This document shows, piece by piece, positions 27,750 to 62,769 of a DNA stretch of 64,000 nucleotides. A program made the position numbers and the translations under genes. The stretch is from Mycobacterium sp. 3519A (GTDB lineage: Bacteria > Actinomycetota > Actinomycetes > Mycobacteriales > Mycobacteriaceae). The notes below the pieces were generated by a model that was not told the origin of the DNA, ran no database searches, and was given only the letters and a program-made list of their open reading frames with translations. Numbering within the stretch: position 1 is the first letter of the stretch; each line of letters begins with the position of its first letter. The stretch is from the NCBI RefSeq assembly GCF_900240945.1, contig NZ_OESG01000013.1:2565622-2629621 (forward strand), given 5' to 3'.

Positions 27750-29051
27750 GTGGTTTTACAGAAGGCGTTGACCCCCGCGGAGATCAGCGCGATCGACGCC
27801 GCGCACGTCTGGCACCCGTACAGCACCATCGGTGCCGAGGCGCTGGCCCCGGTGGTGGCGGTCGGCGCCAAGGGCGCCTGGTTGACACTGATCGACGACG
27901 GTGAGCGGATCGAGGTGCTCGACGCGATGGCGTCCTGGTGGACCGCGATCCACGGCCACGGACATCCCGCGCTGGATGCGGCGATCACCCGCCAACTGGC
28001 GACGATGAACCACGTCATGTTCGGTGGGCTGACGCACGAACCGGCCGCCCGGCTGGCCGAGCTGCTGGTGCAGATCACGCCTGACGGGCTCGACACGGTG
28101 TTCTTCAGCGACTCCGGTTCGGTGTCGGTGGAAGTCGCGGTCAAGATGGCGCTGCAGTACTGGCGCAGCATCGGACGTGGCGACAGGCATCGGCTGATGA
28201 CGTGGCGCGGTGGCTACCACGGCGACACGTTCACACCGATGAGCGTGTGCGACCCGGACGGCGGCATGCACCAGTTGTGGACCGACGTCCTGGCCCGCCA
28301 GGAGTTCGCACCCCAGGTGCCCACCGACTACGACGACGGCTACGTCGCGGCGTTCGAGAAGCAGTTGGCCGAACACGCCGACGAACTCGCCGCGGTGATC
28401 GTCGAACCCGTCGTGCAGGGCGCGGGCGGGATGCGGTTTCACGACCCCCGGTATCTGGTCGATCTGCGCGCGATCTGCGACCGCCACGGTGTGCTGCTGA
28501 TCTTCGACGAGATCGCCACCGGCTTCGGCCGCACGGGTGAGCTGTTCGCGGCCGATCACGCGGGGGTGCGCCCCGACATCATGTGTGTCGGCAAGGCGAT
28601 CACCGGCGGTTACATCACGCTGGCCGCGACGCTGTGCACCCGCGACATCGCGGACACGATCAGCACGCATGAGCCCGGTGCGCTGATGCACGGTCCGACG
28701 TTCATGGCCAACGCGCTGGCGTGCGCTGTCGGTGTGGCCGCGGTCGAGCTGCTGGTCGAACAGGATTGGCGGGCAAGGGTTTCCACGATCGAGGCAGGGT
28801 TGCGGCAGGGGCTGGCCGGCGCGGCGGACCTGCCTGGGGTCGCCGATGTGCGGGTGCTCGGGGCGATCGGGGTGCTGGAGATGACCAAACCGGTCGACCT
28901 GCGCATCGCGACACCCGCGGCGCTGCGGCACGGCGTCTGGCTGCGCCCGTTCCGCAATCTGATCTACGTGATGCCGCCCTACATCTGCACCGATGCCGAG
29001 ATCGCGCAGATCACCTCGGCGATGTTGGGCGTCGCCGATGCGCTAACCTGA
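27750..29051 (+). CDS. bioA: Adenosylmethionine-8-amino-7-oxononanoate aminotransferase
   Basis: PLP enzyme that makes 7,8-diaminopelargonate from KAPA, using S-adenosylmethionine as amino donor. It has 433 residues: [10 protein letters not shown] (substrate-binding Trp/Tyr region), [29 protein letters not shown], and the PLP Lys in CVGKAITGG (Lys282). GTG at 27750 has AAAGGA about 6 nt upstream; the longer upstream frame overlaps the divergent acyltransferase gene and is rejected. It is separated from bioF by about 105 bp that hold the bioF promoter and repeats. Confidence 0.96.
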
Positions 29052-29061
29052 ACACCGTTCA
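29044..29061 (+). promoter_or_regulatory. bioF promoter -10 and BioQ-type operator
   Basis: TAACCT at 29044-29049 fits a -10. The perfect 13-bp palindrome TGAAC-ACC-GTTCA (29049-29061) overlaps its last base and the expected transcription start near 29056. TGAAC half-sites spaced by 3 bp are the published BioQ recognition pattern in actinobacteria, and the bioQ gene is at 34663 with the same box in front of bioB. Confidence 0.75.
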
Positions 29062-29130
29062 ATTGTCGGCTCAGCCGACGCGTTCAATTGTCGGCTCAGC
29101 CGACGCGTTCAATTGTCGGCTCGGCCGACG
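29056..29130 (+). repeat. Three tandem 25-bp repeats in the bioF leader
   Basis: Units at 29056-29080, 29081-29105 and 29106-29130. The first two are identical and the third differs by one base (A to G in the loop). Each begins CGTTCAATT (half of the BioQ box) and contains the perfect inverted repeat GTCGGC-N3-GCCGAC (29065-29079, 29090-29104, 29115-29129). The loops are TCA, TCA, TCG. A degenerate fourth start, CGTGCAAG, follows at 29131 before the SD GGAGG. Confidence 0.9.
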
Positions 29131-29157
29131 CGTGCAAGTCCGTCCGGAGGTGACCAG

Positions 29158-30303
29158 GTGACGCGTGTCGGTCTTTCCCCGCTGGCCTGGCTCGACGACG
29201 TCGAGCAGCAGCGCCGCGCGGCCGGGCTTCGTCGCTCCCTGCGCACGCGTCCGCCGGTCGGCGCCGACCTCGACCTGGCCTCCAACGACTACCTCGGGCT
29301 GTCGCAACACCCCGCCGTGATCGACGGCGGCGTCGACGCGCTGCGCACCTGGGGCGCCGGTTCGACCGGGTCGCGACTGGTCACCGGCAACACCGAACTG
29401 CACGAAGGCTTCGAGGCCGCGCTCGCGGAGTTCGTCGCCGCGGAATCGGCACTCGTGTTCTCGTCGGGCTACACCGCCAACCTCGGGGCGGTCGTGTCGC
29501 TGTCCGGGGCGGGGTCGCTGTTGGTGTCGGATGCGCTGACCCACGCGTCGCTGGTGGACGCCTGCCGGTTGTCGCGGGCCCGCGTCGTGGTGACGCCGCA
29601 TCGGGACCTCGCCGCTGTGGAGGCGGCACTGGCCGCCAGGGATGAAGAGCGCGCCGTCGTGGTGACGGACTCGGTGTTCTCCGCCGACGGTGTGCTGGCA
29701 CCGCTGCGCGCCCTGCACGACGTGTGCCGCAGGCACGGCGCACTGTTGATCGTCGACGAGGCGCATGGCCTCGGCGTGCGCGGCAGCGGAGGGCGGGGCC
29801 TGCTGCACGAGGTCGGCCTCGCCGGTGCGCCCGACGTGGTGATGACGACGACGCTGTCCAAAGCGTTGGGCAGCCAGGGTGGCGTGGTGCTCGGGCCCGC
29901 CGCGGTGCGGGCGCATCTGATCGACGCGGCGCGACCCTTCATCTTCGACACCGGCTTGGCGCCCGCCGCGGTCGGCGCCGCGTGGGCCGCGCTTCGCGTG
30001 CTGATCGACGAGCCATGGCGAGCCACGGCGGTGCTCGATCACGCGGCCGCGCTCGCCGAGATGTGTGGGGTGGCCGAGCGTCCGGATTCGGCGGTGGTGT
30101 CGGTGATCCTCGGCGAACCCGAGGTGGCCTTGGCGGCCGCCGCGGCCTGCCTGGAGCGCGGGGTGCGGGTCGGCTGCTTCCGCCCGCCGACCGTCCCCGC
30201 TGGGACATCACGGCTGCGGCTGACGGCGCGGGCGTCGCTGTCCGACGACGAAATGGCTTTGGCGCGCGAGGTTCTCACCGAAGTACTCGCAGATCTGCCG
30301 TGA
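29158..30303 (+). CDS. bioF: 8-amino-7-oxononanoate (KAPA) synthase
   Basis: PLP-dependent condensation of pimeloyl thioester with alanine, the first ring-assembly step of biotin. It has 381 residues: [32 protein letters not shown] (substrate and PLP site), [11 protein letters not shown], and [12 protein letters not shown] with the PLP Lys at about 235. GTG at 29158 is preceded by GGAGG with 7-nt spacing. It is coupled to bioD by a GTGA overlap. Expression probably starts at the BioQ-box promoter and passes through the hairpin repeats. Confidence 0.96.
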
Positions 30304-30971
30304 GCACGCTTGTCGTCACGGGCACCGACACCGGGGTGGGCAAGACGGTGGCCACCGCCGCGCTCGCATGTGCGGCCCGACAGGCCGGTGTCGACGTCGC
30401 CGTGTGCAAACCCGTGCAGACCGGTAGCCCCCGAGACGACGACCTCGCCGACGTCGCCCGACTTGCGGGCGTGACTGCGCTTTACGGCACGTGGCGGTAT
30501 CCCGAACCGCTGGCACCGGCCGCTGCCGCCGAGCGGGCGGGTATGGCACTGCCCACCCGCGACGAGCTGGTCCGGTCGGTGACCGCGGTCGATGCAAAGC
30601 TGACGTTGGTCGAGGGCGCGGGCGGTCTGCTGGTCGAACTCGGCCAGGGCGGGGTGACGTTGCGCGACATCGCACGCGACCTGGCCGCCCAGGTGCTGGT
30701 CGTCGTCTCACCCGGCCTCGGCACGCTCAACCACACCGCGCTCACGCTGGAAGCGCTTGCCGCGCAGCACATTCCATGCGCCGGCCTGGTGATCGGGGCG
30801 TGGCCGCGCGAACCTGGCGTCGCCGAGACAGGCAACCGTGACGCGCTGGAACGGATGGCTGCAGTGCGCGCGGTGCTGCCTGCGGGTGTCGGAGCCTCGA
30901 GCGCCAGCGACTTCGAATCGATGAGCGCCGCCGCCTTCGACACCCAGTGGGTCACGAGCCTGGCGGGCTGA
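30300..30971 (+). CDS. bioD: Dethiobiotin synthetase
   Basis: ATP-dependent closure of the ureido ring of dethiobiotin. It has 223 residues: P-loop [18 protein letters not shown] at the N-terminus, the substrate motif CKPVQTG, and [12 protein letters not shown]. The GTG start overlaps the bioF stop, and the TGA shares a base with the ATG of the next gene. It is normal in length and complete. Confidence 0.95.
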
Positions 30972-31480
30972 TGGTCCACTCCGTCGAGGTGGTCTTCGAT
31001 CCGGACACCGAAGAGGCCGTCCGGCACATCTGGGACGGGCTGCGGGAGGCGGGAATTCCCAGCCAGGCTCCCGCGAGCAGGCCGCATTCGACGTTGACCG
31101 TCGCCGAGCACATCGACAGCGACGTCGACGCGGTGCTGCAGTCGCTGACGACGCGGTTTCCCCTCCCGTGCCGGATCGGCGCGCCGTTGTTGTTCGGCCG
31201 GTCCCAGTTCATCCTGACCCGGCTGCTGGTACCGACGGCGGCGCTGCTGGACCTGCATGCCGAAGTCTGCCTGCGCTGTCTGCCGTTTCAGCGCCCCGAG
31301 CCGATGGCAAACTCGCTGCCAGGGCAATGGACCGCACACGTGACGATGGCCCGCCGACTGCACGCCAGCCAGCTGGGGCGCGCGCTGCGGATAGCCGGTC
31401 GACCGTCGGAGATCGTCGGTCAGGTGATCGGCATTCGTCGCTGGGACGGCAACGCCAAACGCGAATACCGGATCAGTTGA
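30971..31480 (+). CDS. 2'-5' RNA ligase / 2H phosphoesterase family protein
   Basis: A 169-residue protein with the two His-X-Ser/Thr motifs of the 2H phosphoesterase fold: HSTLTV (about residue 38) and HVTMA (about residue 123). Members act on 2',3'-cyclic phosphates or 2'-5' linkages. It is the positional equivalent of M. tuberculosis Rv1571, always next to bioD in mycobacteria, and is coupled to bioD (TGATG). A direct role in biotin synthesis is not established. It overlaps the convergent YjbR gene by 8 bp. Confidence 0.85.
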   Translation: MVHSVEVVFDPDTEEAVRHIWDGLREAGIPSQAPASRPHSTLTVAEHIDSDVDAVLQSLTTRFPLPCRIGAPLLFGRSQFILTRLLVPTAALLDLHAEVCLRCLPFQRPEPMANSLPGQWTAHVTMARRLHASQLGRALRIAGRPSEIVGQVIGIRRWDGNAKREYRIS

Positions 31481-31832
31481 CTTCTGCGGCAACCTTTTTG
31501 GGTACGCACATCCGCCATGCATCGACGACGAGTTCGCGTACCTCGTCGAGGTCGATGGCGTCGAGTCGGACGGCGATCCAGTTGTACCGCATATCCGATG
31601 GACGCGGCAGCATGAACTTGTCGGGCTCGGCGGCCGCCATCGCCGCCCGTTCTTCCTTGGGGAAGCCGACGCCCATCACCGTCTCATCGCGCGAAAACGC
31701 GACGAAAACGATCCGCCCCACCCGGAACTTGATCCGGTCGCGCACCACCACCTCGTAGGCCCGGGGCAATCCCGCGGCGATGCGCCGCACGTCGTCGACG
31801 GTGATCACATTTCGAGACGCTAGCCCAGCCAT
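31473..31832 (-). CDS. MmcQ/YjbR family protein
   Basis: A 119-residue protein with a CyaY-like fold: VDDVRRIAAGLPRAYE at the N-terminus, KFRVGRIVFVAFSRDE in the middle and YNWIAVRLDAIDLDEVRELV near the end are typical of YjbR. Some members bind DNA; function is otherwise unclear. The annotated start is ATG at 31832; a GTG nine codons in (VITVDDV) matches the usual family N-terminus better. It is divergent from the LuxR-family gene. Confidence 0.8.
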   Translation of the reverse strand: MAGLASRNVITVDDVRRIAAGLPRAYEVVVRDRIKFRVGRIVFVAFSRDETVMGVGFPKEERAAMAAAEPDKFMLPRPSDMRYNWIAVRLDAIDLDEVRELVVDAWRMCVPKKVAAEVN

Positions 31833-31867
31833 CCGACAACATCCGGGCTGACTGGGAAATTGGTTGC

Positions 31868-31892
31868 GCTGACAACCTCAGCAAAACCTGAG
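31868..31892 (+). promoter_or_regulatory. Overlapping inverted repeats upstream of the LuxR-family gene
   Basis: GCTGA-N5-TCAGC (31868-31882) and CTCAG-N6-CTGAG (31877-31892) share a CTCAG segment, so the two hairpins or protein sites are mutually exclusive. They lie 13-37 bp before the preferred GTG start. Operator or leader structure is possible; short arms make this weak. Confidence 0.25.
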
Positions 31893-31904
31893 ATTCTTCT
31901 GTAC

Positions 31905-34661
31905 GTGTCGGGGATTATTAGCCGACCTGATGAAGAACGGGCAGTTGACGACTTCTTGGGTTTGGCGAGTAAAAGCCCGGCGGCGTTGCTGGTCGAGGGT
32001 GCAGCCGGGATAGGCAAGACCACGTTGTGCCTGCACGCTCTCGATGCGGCGCGCGGGCGTTCGATGCAGGTGCTCACCACCCGACCCGCGCAGGCCGAAT
32101 CCGTCGTCGCGTACAGCGCGTTGGCCGACCTGCTCGGGGGAACCGAGGCACGGTTACTCGAGCATCTGCCGCAACCCCAGATGAAAGCCGTCGACCAGGT
32201 GCTCCTGCGAGCCGACGAAACCGACGGAGTCACCGAACCCCGCGCGGTCGCGGCGGCCTTCCTGGCCCTCGTCGAAGCGCTCGCCGCGGAGACCCCGGTG
32301 CTCGTCGCCATCGACGACGTGCAGTGGCTGGACCCTTCGTCGCTTTTTGCAGTGAGTTTCGCTGCGCGGCGGTTCATCGGCAGGGTCGGCGTGCTGGCCA
32401 CTCGTCGCACCGAGCCCGGTACGCGGGCGGCGACGGAACTGCTTCAGGTCAGGGACCCGACGGCGATGCGGCAGATCGCATTGTCTCCGTTCTCGATCGG
32501 TGAGTTGTCAGACCTGCTCACCGGTCGCCTGGGCAGGCACTTCACCCGCTCAGAGGTCAGGCGGATACACGAAATCTCGGGCGGCAACCCCTTCTACGCG
32601 CTCGAGTTGGGCCGTGTTTTTCACGGTGCGACATCCAGCGGAGAGGTATCGCTTCCTGATTCGCTTTCGGACGTGGTCGAGGCGCGCATCCACGGGCTGA
32701 ATCCGGACACTCGGCACATTCTGCTGGCGGCCGCATGTCTGTCCGCACCCTCGACCGAGGTCATCGCGAAGGCGATGGGGACCTCGACGGAACGCGTCGC
32801 GAAACTGCTCGAACCGGCTGAGGCGGACGGGATCGTTCGCCTCAACGGAGGTAGCCTGACTTTTTCTCATCCACTGCTGGCGCACGGCGTCTACGCCGGC
32901 TTCGCGCCGTCCGAACGCCGGGCGATGCACCGCGCCATCGCCGACGTGGTGGAGCAGCCGGAGCTGCGTGCGCGCCACCTCGCCCGCGGGGCGACGAGCG
33001 CCGACGCGACGACGCTCGCGGCTCTCGACGAGGCCGCCCAGATGGCGCGGAACCGCGGCGCACCTTCGGCCGCCGCGGAGCTGCTCGACCTCGCGATCGC
33101 GCTCGGTGGCGACGACCCCGATCGGCAAATACGCTCTGCGACACATCACTTCGAAAGTGGGGCTGCGGAGGCAGCGCGGTCGCTGCTCAACGTTGCGATC
33201 AAGCGGCTCAAACCGGGCCGGACCCGTGCCGCCGCGGCCAGCCTGCTCGCCACCATTGTCATGTATGCCGACGGATTCGGTTCGGCGGCAAGCCTTTTGG
33301 AAGGCTTCCTGCCGGAAGCCGCTGACGACGCGGGGTTGTCGGTTCAGATGCTGATGGCACTCGCATACGTGCTGATCAACATCGGGCGCAAGCGAGACTC
33401 GGCAAACCGCATCGACGAAGCCGTCCAGCGCGCAGAGGCGCTCGGTCAGCCCACGTTGCTGAGTCGCGCCCTCGGCCTGCAGGTCGTGTTGCGGTTCATG
33501 TGCGGCGCAGGGGTAGACGAGGCGAAGCTGCAGCGCGCGTTGGCGCTGGAGGACGACAAATCACCGGCGCAGGTCGCGTTTCAGCCCAGAGTGCAGAACG
33601 CGATCCTGCGGGCGTGGATCGGTGAACTCGCTGTCGCGCGCCGAGAGCTTCGGTCGATACACCAGCAGCGGATCGAGAACGGCGAGGAAAGCGAGTCGAT
33701 CTTCATCTCGTATCACCGCGCGATGGTCGAGATCTGGAGCGGCGAGTTCGACGAGGCCCGGCGCATCGCGGACGACGCCATGGACCGCGCGGCGCACCTC
33801 GACGGCGATGTCCATCTGTTCAGCGCGATCGCGATCCGCTCGTCACTCGCCGCATTCGCGGGCGAGGTGGAGGCGGCCCGCAGCGACGCGAGGGTCGCCC
33901 TCGATGCGTCTGATCGTAGCGAGGGCCGTGAATTGGGCGGCTGGATGGTGGCGAATCTCGGTTTCCTCGAGACGTCGCTGGGCCGTTATGCGGAGGCCGT
34001 TGCGGTCATGCAACCGGTCATCGACGGCCTGCTCGCGGATCCGGACTACTCCGAGATCATCGTGGCGTCCTGCGTCGGCGACGCGGTCGAGTCGATGGTC
34101 CAGTTGGAGCGACTCGGCGAAGCGCAACGCCTGACCGATCTGATGGGGCGCAACGGCACTCGACTGGATCGTGCGTGGATGCTTGCGGTGGCGGGGCGGT
34201 GCAGTGGAATGCTGCTCGCCGCCAGGGGTGACCTGGCCGGCGGGATACGCGCCGCCGAGGCGGCAATGACGCAGCACGACCGGGTCCCGATGCCGTTCGA
34301 GCGTGCCCGAACTCAGTTGCTGCTCGGGCAGTTACAGCGCCGGTTGCGAAAGAAACATGCGGCTTCGGCATCGCTGCGCGAGGCGCTGGACACGTTCGAG
34401 CGGCTGGGGACTCCGTTGTGGGCCGACCGCGCGCGTGCCGATCTGGCCAGGGTGACGGTCAACGCCGGTGTCGCGGTGCTGACGCCGTCCGAACGACAGG
34501 TCGCCGAACTCGTCGCGTCGGGCATGACCAATCGTGCCATTGCCGCCGAACTGTTCATCAGCCCGAAGACCGTCGACACCAATCTCTTTCGCATCTACCG
34601 CAAGCTGAGCATCCACTCGCGCGCCGAATTGGCCCGGTGGGTGTCCGAGCAACTGGGATGA
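31905..34661 (+). CDS. Large ATP-binding LuxR-family regulator (LAL/MalT type)
   Basis: A 918-residue signal-transduction ATPase. AAA/NACHT-like N-terminus: Walker A GAAGIGKTT (about 32-40), Walker B VLVAIDDVQWLD. The middle 500 residues are helical repeats of the TPR type. The C-terminal LuxR HTH is LTPSERQVAELVASGMTNRA with FISPKTVDTNLFRIYRKL. Such proteins sense a small ligand, oligomerise with ATP and activate transcription. GTG at 31905 puts the ATPase at the usual distance from the N-terminus; TTG at 31860 is an alternative. It sits inside the biotin neighbourhood with its stop 1 bp from convergent bioQ, and looks like an accessory insertion; its targets are unknown. Confidence 0.9.
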   Translation: MSGIISRPDEERAVDDFLGLASKSPAALLVEGAAGIGKTTLCLHALDAARGRSMQVLTTRPAQAESVVAYSALADLLGGTEARLLEHLPQPQMKAVDQVLLRADETDGVTEPRAVAAAFLALVEALAAETPVLVAIDDVQWLDPSSLFAVSFAARRFIGRVGVLATRRTEPGTRAATELLQVRDPTAMRQIALSPFSIGELSDLLTGRLGRHFTRSEVRRIHEISGGNPFYALELGRVFHGATSSGEVSLPDSLSDVVEARIHGLNPDTRHILLAAACLSAPSTEVIAKAMGTSTERVAKLLEPAEADGIVRLNGGSLTFSHPLLAHGVYAGFAPSERRAMHRAIADVVEQPELRARHLARGATSADATTLAALDEAAQMARNRGAPSAAAELLDLAIALGGDDPDRQIRSATHHFESGAAEAARSLLNVAIKRLKPGRTRAAAASLLATIVMYADGFGSAASLLEGFLPEAADDAGLSVQMLMALAYVLINIGRKRDSANRIDEAVQRAEALGQPTLLSRALGLQVVLRFMCGAGVDEAKLQRALALEDDKSPAQVAFQPRVQNAILRAWIGELAVARRELRSIHQQRIENGEESESIFISYHRAMVEIWSGEFDEARRIADDAMDRAAHLDGDVHLFSAIAIRSSLAAFAGEVEAARSDARVALDASDRSEGRELGGWMVANLGFLETSLGRYAEAVAVMQPVIDGLLADPDYSEIIVASCVGDAVESMVQLERLGEAQRLTDLMGRNGTRLDRAWMLAVAGRCSGMLLAARGDLAGGIRAAEAAMTQHDRVPMPFERARTQLLLGQLQRRLRKKHAASASLREALDTFERLGTPLWADRARADLARVTVNAGVAVLTPSERQVAELVASGMTNRAIAAELFISPKTVDTNLFRIYRKLSIHSRAELARWVSEQLG

Positions 34662-34662
34662 C

Positions 34663-35241
34663 CTACAGACGATGGCTTTGCCGCGCTTCGATTCCCGCGA
34701 GGAGCAGGCCGATCCCGAACGCGAAGCGACCGGTGTCGTCATCCGACCAGATCGACTGCGCTTCCGGTAGTTCGGCGCCCGCCGCGTCCCACTGAAGCCG
34801 CGACTGCTCGTCGGCAGTGAAGCCGAGGACGTAGTACAGGATGGTGCGGGCAGCAAGCCCGGCGTGCGCGGCTTCCACGCCGGCGTCGGTGACCGCATCG
34901 GTCAGCCGCAGCAGGATGTGCGCCATCGCGGTCGACTGTCCTGACGCGAAACTCGCCGACACCAACTCGGCACCGTCGGTGTGGGACAACAGCGCGTCAC
35001 GCAACCGGCCGCACGTCCCGGTCACCCGCTGCTGCCAAGCGCCGGGCTGGTCGTCGACCGACTCGAGGATCCGGTCCGCGACCGCACCCAACAACTGCTG
35101 CTTGTTGGCGAAATGCCAGTACAACGCGCCGGGGGAGACGGTGAGCTCCCGGGCCAGCCGCCGCATCGTCAGGTCCGCGATCCCGTAGGAGTCGAGCAGC
35201 GCGGTCGCCGCGTCGACCACGTCGCGTTTGTGGAGCTGCAC
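34663..35241 (-). CDS. bioQ: BioQ, TetR-family repressor of biotin genes
   Basis: A 192-residue TetR-family protein: HKRDVVDAATALLDSYG, then LTMRRLARELTVSPGALYWH as the HTH, and a helical C-terminal domain like TetR_C. Divergent orientation from bioB, and matching TGAAC-N3-GTTCA boxes in front of bioB and bioF, identify it as BioQ, which represses bio genes in mycobacteria and corynebacteria. GTG at 35241 is preceded, in its own direction, by TAGGGT 6 nt away, so it should be leaderless and share the bioB control region, which implies autoregulation. Confidence 0.85.
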   Translation of the reverse strand: MQLHKRDVVDAATALLDSYGIADLTMRRLARELTVSPGALYWHFANKQQLLGAVADRILESVDDQPGAWQQRVTGTCGRLRDALLSHTDGAELVSASFASGQSTAMAHILLRLTDAVTDAGVEAAHAGLAARTILYYVLGFTADEQSRLQWDAAGAELPEAQSIWSDDDTGRFAFGIGLLLAGIEARQSHRL

Positions 35242-35245
35242 ACCG

Positions 35246-36333
<1,088 letters not shown>

Positions 36334-36534
36334 ATGGCGGCCAAGTTCAACGTCTACACTGGCGAGCCCGCGGGCGGAGCCGTTCCCACGGCCGCCCAAC
36401 TCGGTTTGGAGCCACCCCGGTTCTGCGCGGAGTGCGGCAGGCGCATGGTGGTGCAGGTGCGTCCAGACGGCTGGCTGGCGAAGTGCTCGCGCCACGGTGA
36501 GCAGGATTCGAAGGACCTAGATGAGCGACGTTGA
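36334..36534 (+). CDS. bsaP: Biotin synthase auxiliary protein-like small Cys protein
   Basis: A 66-residue protein with [12 protein letters not shown] (CXXC) and KCSRHG, i.e. three Cys plus a His that could bind metal or an Fe-S cluster. It starts immediately after the bioB stop. It is the positional equivalent of M. tuberculosis Rv1590, the family recently named BsaP because actinobacterial BioB needs it; that link is from memory. Its end overlaps the next gene by 14 bp. Confidence 0.75.
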
Positions 36535-60775: not shown

Positions 60776-62769
60776 CGACGACTTACCTGGCGTACATACC
60801 AAGTCCTTCGCAAGGGGTGTGGCACATCGGTCCAGTGCCGCTTCGCGCGTACGCGCTGTTCATCATCGTGGGGATCATCGCGGCGCTGGTGCTCGGTGAT
60901 CGGCGATGGGTGGCCCGCGGCGGCCAGCAGGGCGTCATCTACGACATCGCGTTGTGGGCAGTGCCGTTCGGACTGATCGGTGGCCGGCTGTATCACGTCA
61001 TGACCGACTGGCGGACGTACTTCGGTGAAGACGGCGCAGGGGTGGCGGGTGCCCTGCGGATCTGGGACGGCGGCCTCGGCATCTGGGGTGCGGTCGCACT
61101 GGGGGCGGTCGGTGCTTGGATCGGGTGCAGGCAGAAGGGGATTCCGCTATCCGCGTTCGGTGACGCGATCGCGCCCGGAATCATTCTGGCCCAGGCCATC
61201 GGCCGACTGGGTAACTACTTCAACCAGGAGTTGTACGGCAGGCCGACAACGCTGCCGTGGGGGCTGGAGATCTATGAGCGCCGCGATGCGAGTGGCGCGC
61301 TGGACACCTTGAATGGGGTGTCGACCGGTCAGCTGATCGAGGTCGTCCACCCGACGTTCTTGTACGAATTGTTGTGGAACCTTTTGGTTTTCGCGGCGCT
61401 GCTTTGGATCGACAAACGGTTCAAGATCGGCCACGGCCGGCTGTTCGCGATGTATGTGGCGGGCTACTGCGTCGGCCGGTTCTGGGTCGAGTTGATGCGC
61501 AGTGACGTGGCTACGCACATCGCCGGCATCCGGATCAATTCGTTCACATCGACGTTCGTGTTCGTCGGCGCGGTCGTGTACATCATGGTCGCGCCGAAGG
61601 GTAGAGAAGATCCGGCGTCCCTTGTGGGTAAACCGGAAGACGATCATGCGGTGCTGGCGAAAGAGCTGACGACTGTCGCGGCGACGACGGGTGTGGTGGC
61701 TGCCGCCAAGGCCGCGGGTGATGTCGAGGCCGAAGACGCGAAGGCCGTCGCTGAGCCCGAGACAGAAGACGCCGAAGCCCTCGGGGCCGACGTGGCGGGC
61801 GTCCCCGCGGACTCGGTCGAGGATGCAGAGAAGTTCGCAGCGGAGGGCGAGGAGGAGCCCGAGGCGGGCCTGGGTGCGGTCGAGGGCGAGGAAGTCGCAG
61901 ACGCGGTCGAGGCTGCGCCGGAGGTGCATGAGGCAGAGGTCGAAGCCGCCGAAGAAGCCGAGGCCGTCGCGGATGAGGCCGCTGCGAAAGCCAAAGACGA
62001 AGAGGCCGAGGCACCGAGCGACGACGCCGAGGTAGAGGCCGCTGACGAGGCTGAGGCTGTCGCTGACGAGCCTGCCACGGAAGCCGAGGCGGAGCCCGAA
62101 GCGGTTGAAGCCGACGCCGAGGCGGAGCCCGACGACGAGGCCGAGGCTGTCGCGGTTGAGGCTGCCGCAGAAGCCGAGGCGGAGCCTGAAGAGGTTGAAG
62201 CCGTGACCGAAGTGGCCGCCGCTGACGAGCCAGCTACAGGCCTCGGTGCGGTCGAGGGTGCGGAAGTCGCCGATGCGGTGGAGGCTGCGCCCGAGGTTCA
62301 CGACGCCGAGGCAGAAGCTGCTGATCAGGCAGAGACCGTCGCGGACGAGGAAGCCGAGGAAGCCGCGGAAGGCGAGGAGCCCGAAGAAGTCACTGCTGAA
62401 GTTGCGGCCGACGACGAGCCTCTGTCGGAGGCGGCGGCCGAAGCCGAGGAGCTCGCCGAGGAAGTTGTCGAGGCGCCTGACGAGGAAATTGAGGCGGCAG
62501 CCGAATTCGCCGCCGCGTTCTCCGAAGCCGATGCGGTCGAATCCGACGACTCCGAGCCGGACGAACCCGAGACCGAGGCCGCCGAGGCCGCAGTCGAAGA
62601 GGCAGAAACCGAGCCCTCCGAGGAGGAAGAGGAAGCGGTCGTCGACGAAGCCGCCTCCGCCGCGGACGACGAACCCAAGACCGGTGTCCTCGAGCAGGCG
62701 GAGCCCGAGCCTCCGAAACAGCCCGAGCCTGCCGGGCGACTGAGCCGCTTGTTCCGTCGCAATCGCTGA
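60772..62769 (+). CDS. lgt: Prolipoprotein diacylglyceryl transferase with very long acidic tail
   Basis: Transfers diacylglycerol to the lipobox Cys of prolipoproteins; LspA (5750) then cleaves. The core, residues 1 to about 283, has seven membrane segments and the Lgt signature [22 protein letters not shown] and FWVELMRSD are also conserved. Residues about 284-665 are a Glu/Ala/Asp/Val-rich, low-complexity cytoplasmic tail that ends in basic [11 protein letters not shown] block of about 39 residues beginning GLGAVEG is duplicated at 366 and 490. Mycobacterial Lgt often has some C-terminal extension, but this one exceeds the enzyme in length. Transcription follows trpA by a 4-bp overlap. Confidence 0.95.
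61867..62352 (+). repeat. Duplicated coding block in the lgt tail
   Basis: Two copies of about 117 bp starting at 61867 and 62239 (372 bp apart), encoding [20 protein letters not shown] and [20 protein letters not shown] followed by similar Glu/Ala-rich residues. Codon third positions differ between copies, so the duplication is not recent or the protein sequence is under selection. Confidence 0.8.

Follow-up and report, generated by a model that had tools for sequence, protein, structure and literature searches.

What are tandem hairpin repeats doing directly behind the operator of a biotin gene? This question is raised by the leader of bioF in Mycobacterium sp. 3519A, which we analysed within a stretch of 64,000 nucleotides of that genome (the window). 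The leader carries a BioQ-type box, and the right half of this box is at the same time the start of three 25-bp units, each made up of GTTCAATT, the palindrome GTCGGC-N3-GCCGAC and a final GC; the stem is perfect in all three. The first-pass annotation of this DNA had described a BioQ box fused to three head-to-tail units of 25 bp, with identical stems and the loops TCA, TCA and TCG, lying downstream of the -10. The coordinates bear this out (Table 1): the -10-like TAACCT touches the box, and the units follow. With the -10-to-start distance that we assume, the array sits downstream of the predicted bioF transcription start. The -10, the box and the end of bioA overlap (29044-29051), the TGA of the box (29049-29051) being the bioA stop codon.

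Table 1. Features of the bioF and bioB leaders and of the neighbouring genes in the window.
Feature	Position	Strand	Basis
bioA, upstream neighbour of bioF	27774..29051	+	TIGR00508, E 2.3e-166, above cut-off
-10-like hexamer TAACCT of the bioF promoter	29044..29049	+	sequence; its last T doubles as first base of the box
BioQ-type box TGAACACCGTTCA (TGAAC-N3-GTTCA), bioF	29049..29061	+	matches BioQ motif printed in PMC3398298 (excerpts)
bioF repeat unit 1	29057..29081	+	stem 29065-29070 with 29074-29079, loop TCA
bioF repeat unit 2	29082..29106	+	stem 29090-29095 with 29099-29104, loop TCA
bioF repeat unit 3	29107..29131	+	stem 29115-29120 with 29124-29129, loop TCG
Degenerate start of a fourth unit, GTGCAAGTC, bioF leader	29132..29140	+	sequence
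Shine-Dalgarno-like GGAGG of bioF	29146..29150	+	sequence
bioF, 8-amino-7-oxononanoate synthase, GTG start	29158..30303	+	TIGR00858, E 1.9e-121; 405 bits, slightly below the 426-bit cut-off
Putative bioQ, TetR family, divergent from bioB	34663..35241	-	TetR-type models, E 2.8e-26 and 2.3e-17, below cut-offs
-10-like TAACCT of bioB	35252..35257	+	sequence; spacing to box same as at bioF
BioQ-type box TGAACGGTGTTCA, between bioQ and bioB	35257..35269	+	sequence
bioB repeat unit 1, GTCGGC-CCG-GCCGAC	35265..35289	+	sequence, pattern match
bioB repeat unit 2, GTCGGC-CTG-GCCGAC	35290..35314	+	sequence, pattern match
Truncated start of a third unit, GTTCAAGTC, bioB leader (box to here 35257-35323)	35315..35323	+	sequence
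bioB, biotin synthase, GTG start	35338..36333	+	TIGR00433, E 5.6e-110, above cut-off

Beyond what had been annotated, the bioB leader, 6.2 kb from that of bioF, was found to hold two units of the same arrangement, with its elements in the same order: TAACCT, box, two units, a truncated third, GGAGG and GTG. A TetR-type gene adjoins bioB divergently; its designation as bioQ is based on its place and on the boxes, the NCBIfam matches including no BioQ model. With TGAAC-N3-GTTCA upstream of bio genes, both leaders have the box expected of promoters in a BioQ regulon. In mycobacteria, promoters of bioFD and bioB with a BioQ box have reportedly been described, by Tang in 2014 and by Wei in 2018. 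In the excerpts of PMC3398298 and PMC9302846, mycobacterial promoters of this type have the same box, the same genes and a TetR-type gene beside bioB.

The arrays stand out from the surrounding DNA. Tandem Repeats Finder gave the bioF array a score of 150 (period 25, 3.3 copies, 96% matches). This was exceeded in the window by a single tandem repeat, a probably coding one at 62022-62229 with about two copies of 90 bp. The pattern GTTCAAYTGTCGGC, with up to two mismatches, was matched 7 times in the window against 0.84 times expected, and its 5 exact matches were all within the bioF and bioB leaders. The entire 7.3-Mb genome contained 6 exact matches, 5 of which were those in the two leaders. 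When Rfam covariance models were run over positions 28000-36500 with E values up to 5, the arrays had no match; the sole hit was a sub-threshold one outside the arrays (31648-31706, E 3.3).

The distribution of the arrays was determined in related genomes. The sequence TANCCTRAACNNNGTTCA was present in 146 of 238 genomes of the genus, mostly at two sites each (reversed control, 0), and leaders were located with a pattern that includes the -10-like hexamer. An unselected set was formed by 67 genomes (L155-L221), taken in order among the matches listed and without regard to arrays, and by the window, giving 68; a genome was passed over if a single site was listed for it or if its sites fell on two contigs. 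Thirteen further genomes (L222-L234) were picked for having arrays. With one genome per species compared, this yielded 161 leaders from 81 genomes, window included, and 162 box matches (L180 has two boxes at bioB, L223 contributes one leader only).

By script, the number of complete units per leader ranged from 0 to 5 in the unselected genomes and reached 6 in one selected genome. A complete unit occurred in either leader in 30 of the 68 unselected genomes and in none in 38, a count that includes L181 (probably a chance hairpin) among the 30 and misses L199, where the array has a doubled box. At least one complete unit was present in 13 of 68 bioF leaders and in 24 of 68 bioB leaders (unselected, window included). 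Fifty of the 68 bioF leaders had no such hairpin at all and were short, their start codon lying 17-37 nt after GTTCA. For the expectation, set out in the annotation, that close relatives would have the stem in their bioF leaders, the outcome was mixed: 55 of the 68 unselected bioF leaders lacked a complete unit, and the stem was kept where units exist.

Between two GTTCA anchors, 81 of 85 distinct segments were hairpin-like, with periods of 23-29 bp, of which 24 and 25 were the commonest. Stems vary by species (GTCGG/CCGAC, GCCGG/CCGGC, GGCGG/CCGCC, CTCGG/CCGAG, ACCGG/CCGGT, GACGGT/ACCGTC and CCCCGGC/GCCGGGG), and the bioF and bioB arrays of one genome may have different stems (L173, L225, L234). 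Outside the genus, one of 80 named loci, from Skermania (L082), showed two units GCCGG-GTAA-CCGGC after the bioB box. A wider search covered 401 genomes of the family in 31 genera (52 genomes belonging to the genus of the window); many matches outside the genus were doubled boxes, and 20 stretches with other matches contained no clear leader array. One genome of another genus (L267:1015-1051, genus g30) has, ahead of bioF, a bio box and then one unit-like palindrome CCGGCCGGCCGG, which lies between two GTTCA spaced 24 bp apart and was left out of the counts. BioQ-type boxes doubled at close distance were also seen in the bioB leaders of L180, L199 and L210, as in many genomes outside the genus. 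In an uncultured actinobacterium (L080:11877-12001), four 30-bp copies with a perfect CGAGC-GTCC-GCTCG hairpin lie about 0.9 kb behind bioB.

The copy-number variation and the compensatory stem changes for which the annotation had proposed aligning related leaders were both found. For the stems, 79 distinct units were aligned; 2 of the 81 hairpin-like segments were omitted (one a chance hairpin, one a truncated end), and 3 of the 79 rows were misaligned in the stem. Paired stem cells amounted to 96.8%, against 88.5 after shuffling; cells changed on both sides numbered 36, against 5.8; and the covariation score was 0.283, against 0.116. None of 500 shuffles was as high in any of these three measures. 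When the partner was slid by 1-3 columns, pairing fell to 14-48%. Counted by stem pair, two-sided change affected 3 of 6, which did not exceed the shuffles: 261 of 500 were as high. The units thus have the conserved secondary structure with compensatory changes that a structured cis-regulatory RNA would show, with the caveat of template switching: this process alone can create and mend hairpins, according to the excerpted text of PMC8794818, and since it mends stems without selection, covariation is not proof of selection.

The loop carried a further signal. Its centre was C in 76 units and T in 3, a pyrimidine in 79 of 79, and the neighbouring loop bases varied freely; the reverse complement of any loop did not occur among the 79 units. 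A pyrimidine fixed on one strand points to RNA and not to the DNA site of a dimer, and common descent alone could also keep this base. G-U wobbles outnumbered A-C mismatches 6 to 2 when counted by hand with the misaligned rows set aside, which is not significant; the script gave 8 to 2 (one-sided p 0.055) and the pairing tables 9 to 2 (p 0.033).

As RNA, the two leaders of the window were predicted to fold better than their shuffles (z -2.3 and -3.1). In the unselected leaders, 105 hairpins with stems of at least 5 bp were counted against a mean of 47 in shuffles, which is a weak test because the shuffled leaders are GC-rich too and some leaders include coding sequence. The row of three small hairpins that had been proposed for the bioF leader did not emerge as the predicted minimum: a nested rod of -43.8 kcal/mol was preferred over three local hairpins (-29.4 kcal/mol), because each arm can pair with arms of other units. 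During transcription, the local hairpins should form first.

The arrays turn over rapidly. Concerted evolution is indicated by the differences between units: 0.054 within an array (82 pairs), but 0.225 when bioF units are compared with bioB units of their own genome (56 pairs from 18 genomes), and 0.215 at bioF and 0.168 at bioB when first units are compared across species. Among the array-bearing sister pairs, 13 of 15 differed in unit number, also at a 4-fold divergence of 0.08-0.20; one of these 13 pairs (L158/L181) rests on a chance hairpin, leaving 12 of 14 without it, and another (L231/L232) partly on scoring. The bioF tree comprised 79 of the 81 genomes, two having given no full bioF. 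As tandem direct repeats with copy number differing among related genomes, the arrays behave like minisatellites (VNTR).

Between species, the units differed by 0.17-0.23, 4-fold bioF sites by about 0.49 and leader tails by 0.47-0.55; this comparison of units and 4-fold sites covered only leaders with an intact unit. Units less diverged than 4-fold sites speak for selection, unless the hairpin is regenerated repeatedly. A purely mutational element should decay, so the conservation of the unit counts against its being a minisatellite and nothing else. Against selection stand the scattered presence, the fast turnover, the mixed orientation at other loci and the known mutational route. Selection and mutation are inseparable by sequence alone. 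In 1.515 Mb around 80 bioB genes, 181 of 4408 hairpins had flanking direct repeats, against 172 when partners were shuffled, bio arrays included. Given this lack of an excess, a genome-wide process making hairpins with direct repeats was ruled out; such arrays are rare and occur at particular places, and the bio leaders are a hot spot which a mutational model must explain.

When 41 genomes were searched with a covariance model of the unit, further arrays came to light. Of 21 sites with the end CTNTACTACGACGTNTAR, from 20 genomes, 5 had a clear array of 1-4 units at the glnA stop codon (L340, L341, L351, L352 and L354, of which L351 overlaps L293), one more had a doubtful unit (L359) and 15 had none. 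The glnA query covered 30 genomes, mostly picked for bio arrays, 10 of which lacked the exact end. In these arrays, the flank GACGTNTAR (the last two codons and the stop) is joined to a GTCGG..CCGAC hairpin in sense orientation. The identity as glutamine synthetase was confirmed for one glnA-type gene (L293). Repeats of 12 or 17 nt of the glnA stop region, free of the hairpin, were seen in L342, L349, L353 and L356. A GAF-domain gene that precedes an aldehyde dehydrogenase gene has two 25-bp hairpin units beginning at its stop codon (L361:1602-1642), and three such units occur at what looks by eye like the same place in another genome (L362:1763-1828). Palindromic repeats with a 27-bp period, which keeps the frame, lie within open reading frames (L292:1641-1692, L297:1982-2032 and L363:1784-1854). 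The arrays at the bio genes, glnA and the GAF gene are sense to their genes; those of L290 and L291 and the in-frame ones of L292 and L297 are antisense.

Three of these additional sites are in the genome of strain 3519A itself. Four 25-bp copies with a weak hairpin lie antisense behind a lysine-rich 202-aa gene, which we take to be HbhA-like (L290:2760-2859, contig C14, about 40.8 kb). Two GTCGGC-N3-GCCGAC hairpins with the repeated flank GAAGCCG are found at the end of a 328-aa open reading frame, antisense to it (L291:2044-2094, contig C14, about 23.5 kb). A single GTCGGC-TGA-GCCGAC hairpin stands between two copies of AAACCCTTA, apparently just past a gene stop (L366:1560-1595, contig C13, about 563.9 kb); the 9-bp direct repeat gives it the look of an insertion or duplication.

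All these places have a similar hairpin, joined to a flank that belongs to the host sequence; the BioQ half-site of the bio units is therefore most simply read as the local flank. An RNA role specific to biotin or BioQ is weakened by these copies, as the same hairpin recurs, next to unrelated flanks, at the ends of glnA and at further loci. Core matches per genome, in eight genomes, numbered 6-25 (bio arrays included) against 2-10 for the reversed pattern, two of the eight not being above the control; a loose tandem pattern, applied to 59 genomes, gave too much noise to be of use, with between 2 and 182 matches in each, many of them in GC-rich repeats. A mobile palindrome of the REP type would show numerous scattered copies sharing one flank; these were not found, the flanks differing by site, and a high-copy mobile palindrome was ruled out by the low copy numbers together with the site-specific flanks.

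On balance, and by a modest measure of confidence, we regard the arrays as palindromic minisatellites in the transcribed leaders of bioF and bioB; they would spread by slippage and form hairpins in the RNA, and their effect on the leader would be one of tuning at most. A unit would join a 15-nt palindrome to GTTCAA, a flank that the host supplies as the right-hand half of its BioQ box. The hairpin would bring two flanking copies of GTTCAA together, so that copies may be gained or lost by slippage, which may also homogenise the array. In the mRNA, each unit would fold while it is made into a stem of 5-6 bp with a loop of 3-4 nt, and the finished array could refold into the nested rod. For BioQ itself, the site of action would be the one complete box, which overlaps the -10; the array, located after the predicted start, would at most have an effect, scaling with copy number, on the stability of the leader, on promoter clearance or on translation.

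The array may instead be a selected cis-acting RNA element, a string of hairpins which sets the lifetime or translation of the mRNA or binds an RNA-binding factor; such a factor would see the N-Y-N loop or the single-stranded GUUCAA that separates the hairpins, and the 3' copies at glnA would belong to the same set. We consider this possible, though on the unlikely side. The two-sided stem changes, the invariably pyrimidine loop centre, units more conserved than 4-fold sites, the sense orientation at bioF, bioB and the ends of glnA and the GAF gene, and the better-than-shuffled folds all agree with it, as does the non-significant surplus of wobbles over A-C mismatches. Bacterial mRNA can be stabilised by stem-loops at its 5' end (PMC4843948), and in M. 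smegmatis the half-life of mRNA is influenced by the leader (PMC7148126). It accords poorly with the 38 unselected genomes that have no complete unit, with sister species that differ in copy number, with the four antisense arrays and with the lack of an Rfam match; template switching (PMC8794818, in part) would also explain the covariation, and the pairs with two-sided change were no more numerous than in shuffles. An extended form of this idea would make the arrays a widespread mycobacterial RNA element, in which strings of N-Y-N-looped hairpins on local flanks, mostly in sense, turn copy number into a dial by which evolution quickly adjusts biotin and nitrogen genes, a shared RNA-binding protein or RNase being the probable agent. 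This we think unlikely, and the antisense arrays at gene ends (L290, L291) lower its chances.

Less probable still is that the array acts as DNA, the GTTCA half-sites raising the local occupancy of BioQ and the palindromes serving as spacers or as a second operator. GTTCAA is indeed kept to the last copy, and position 6, free in the search pattern, is A in 53 of 61. The units nevertheless contain no TGAAC partner half-site; the sequence of the palindrome and the length of the spacer vary by species, unlike an operator; the C of the loop centre is on one strand only; and at the glnA ends the palindrome follows a flank other than GTTCAA. That the 25-bp period is not a whole number of DNA turns had already been noted, and the range of 23-29 bp (2.2-2.8 turns) among relatives likewise argues against helical phasing; a helically phased BioQ array was ruled out by this variation of period and sequence. 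The least credible candidate is a biotin-sensing riboswitch or attenuator, which the location in the leaders of two biotin operons would suit. Copy number runs from 0 to 6 with many relatives having none, a long conserved unpaired core is lacking, the hairpins are not followed by a T-run in the bioF leader, and copies occur at glnA; moreover, a 25-nt period shifts the reading frame with each unit, so there is no repeated leader peptide. For want of a conserved core, T-run, kept frame or Rfam match, this candidate was rejected. Our order of preference is a hairpin repeat made by slippage, tolerated and perhaps tuning the leader, then a dedicated regulatory RNA and, behind these two, a BioQ DNA array.

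The arrays resemble several known systems in part. MIRU/VNTR minisatellites of mycobacteria are tandem intergenic copies whose number varies between genomes, and MIRU units are longer. The present arrays share the variable tandem intergenic copies, whereas MIRU are not built of an operator half-site and a perfect 15-nt palindrome. REP and BIME are short extragenic palindromes, sometimes in tandem. So are other families of stem-loop repeats (PMC2267715, in excerpt); here, in contrast, there are few copies per genome, and the flank in the unit comes from the host site and not from an element. Stabilising stem-loops of 5' UTRs, as presented in the portions of PMC4843948 at hand, are likewise stem-loops of the 5' leader that could protect mRNA, whereas the present units are tandem, variable in copy number and known from their sequence. 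Template-switch hairpins (PMC8794818, partial text) also arise by a process yielding perfect stems and two-sided changes; here the process is coupled to tandem amplification, and loops were never found inverted. No hairpin array after the box was reported for BioQ-box promoters in the excerpts of PMC3398298 and PMC9302846, and the main text of the latter contains neither 'hairpin' nor 'palindrom'. Hairpin repeats in bio leaders were not described in the literature titles and abstracts searched; the primary BioQ papers (Tang 2014, Wei 2018, Brune 2012) and most subscription journals lay outside this search.

What is new is that a minisatellite, a 5' UTR hairpin and an operator half-site, each known in kind, are joined in one unit. 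Three things that usually occur apart thereby meet in one short stretch of DNA: half of a repressor site, a direct repeat prone to slippage and a hairpin in the RNA. The arrays also carry a warning: covariation in tandem palindromes need not imply a riboswitch. For the mycobacteria, they provide a natural copy-number series, from 0 to 6 units with matched sister species, in which the effects of 5'-end hairpins on mRNA may be studied.
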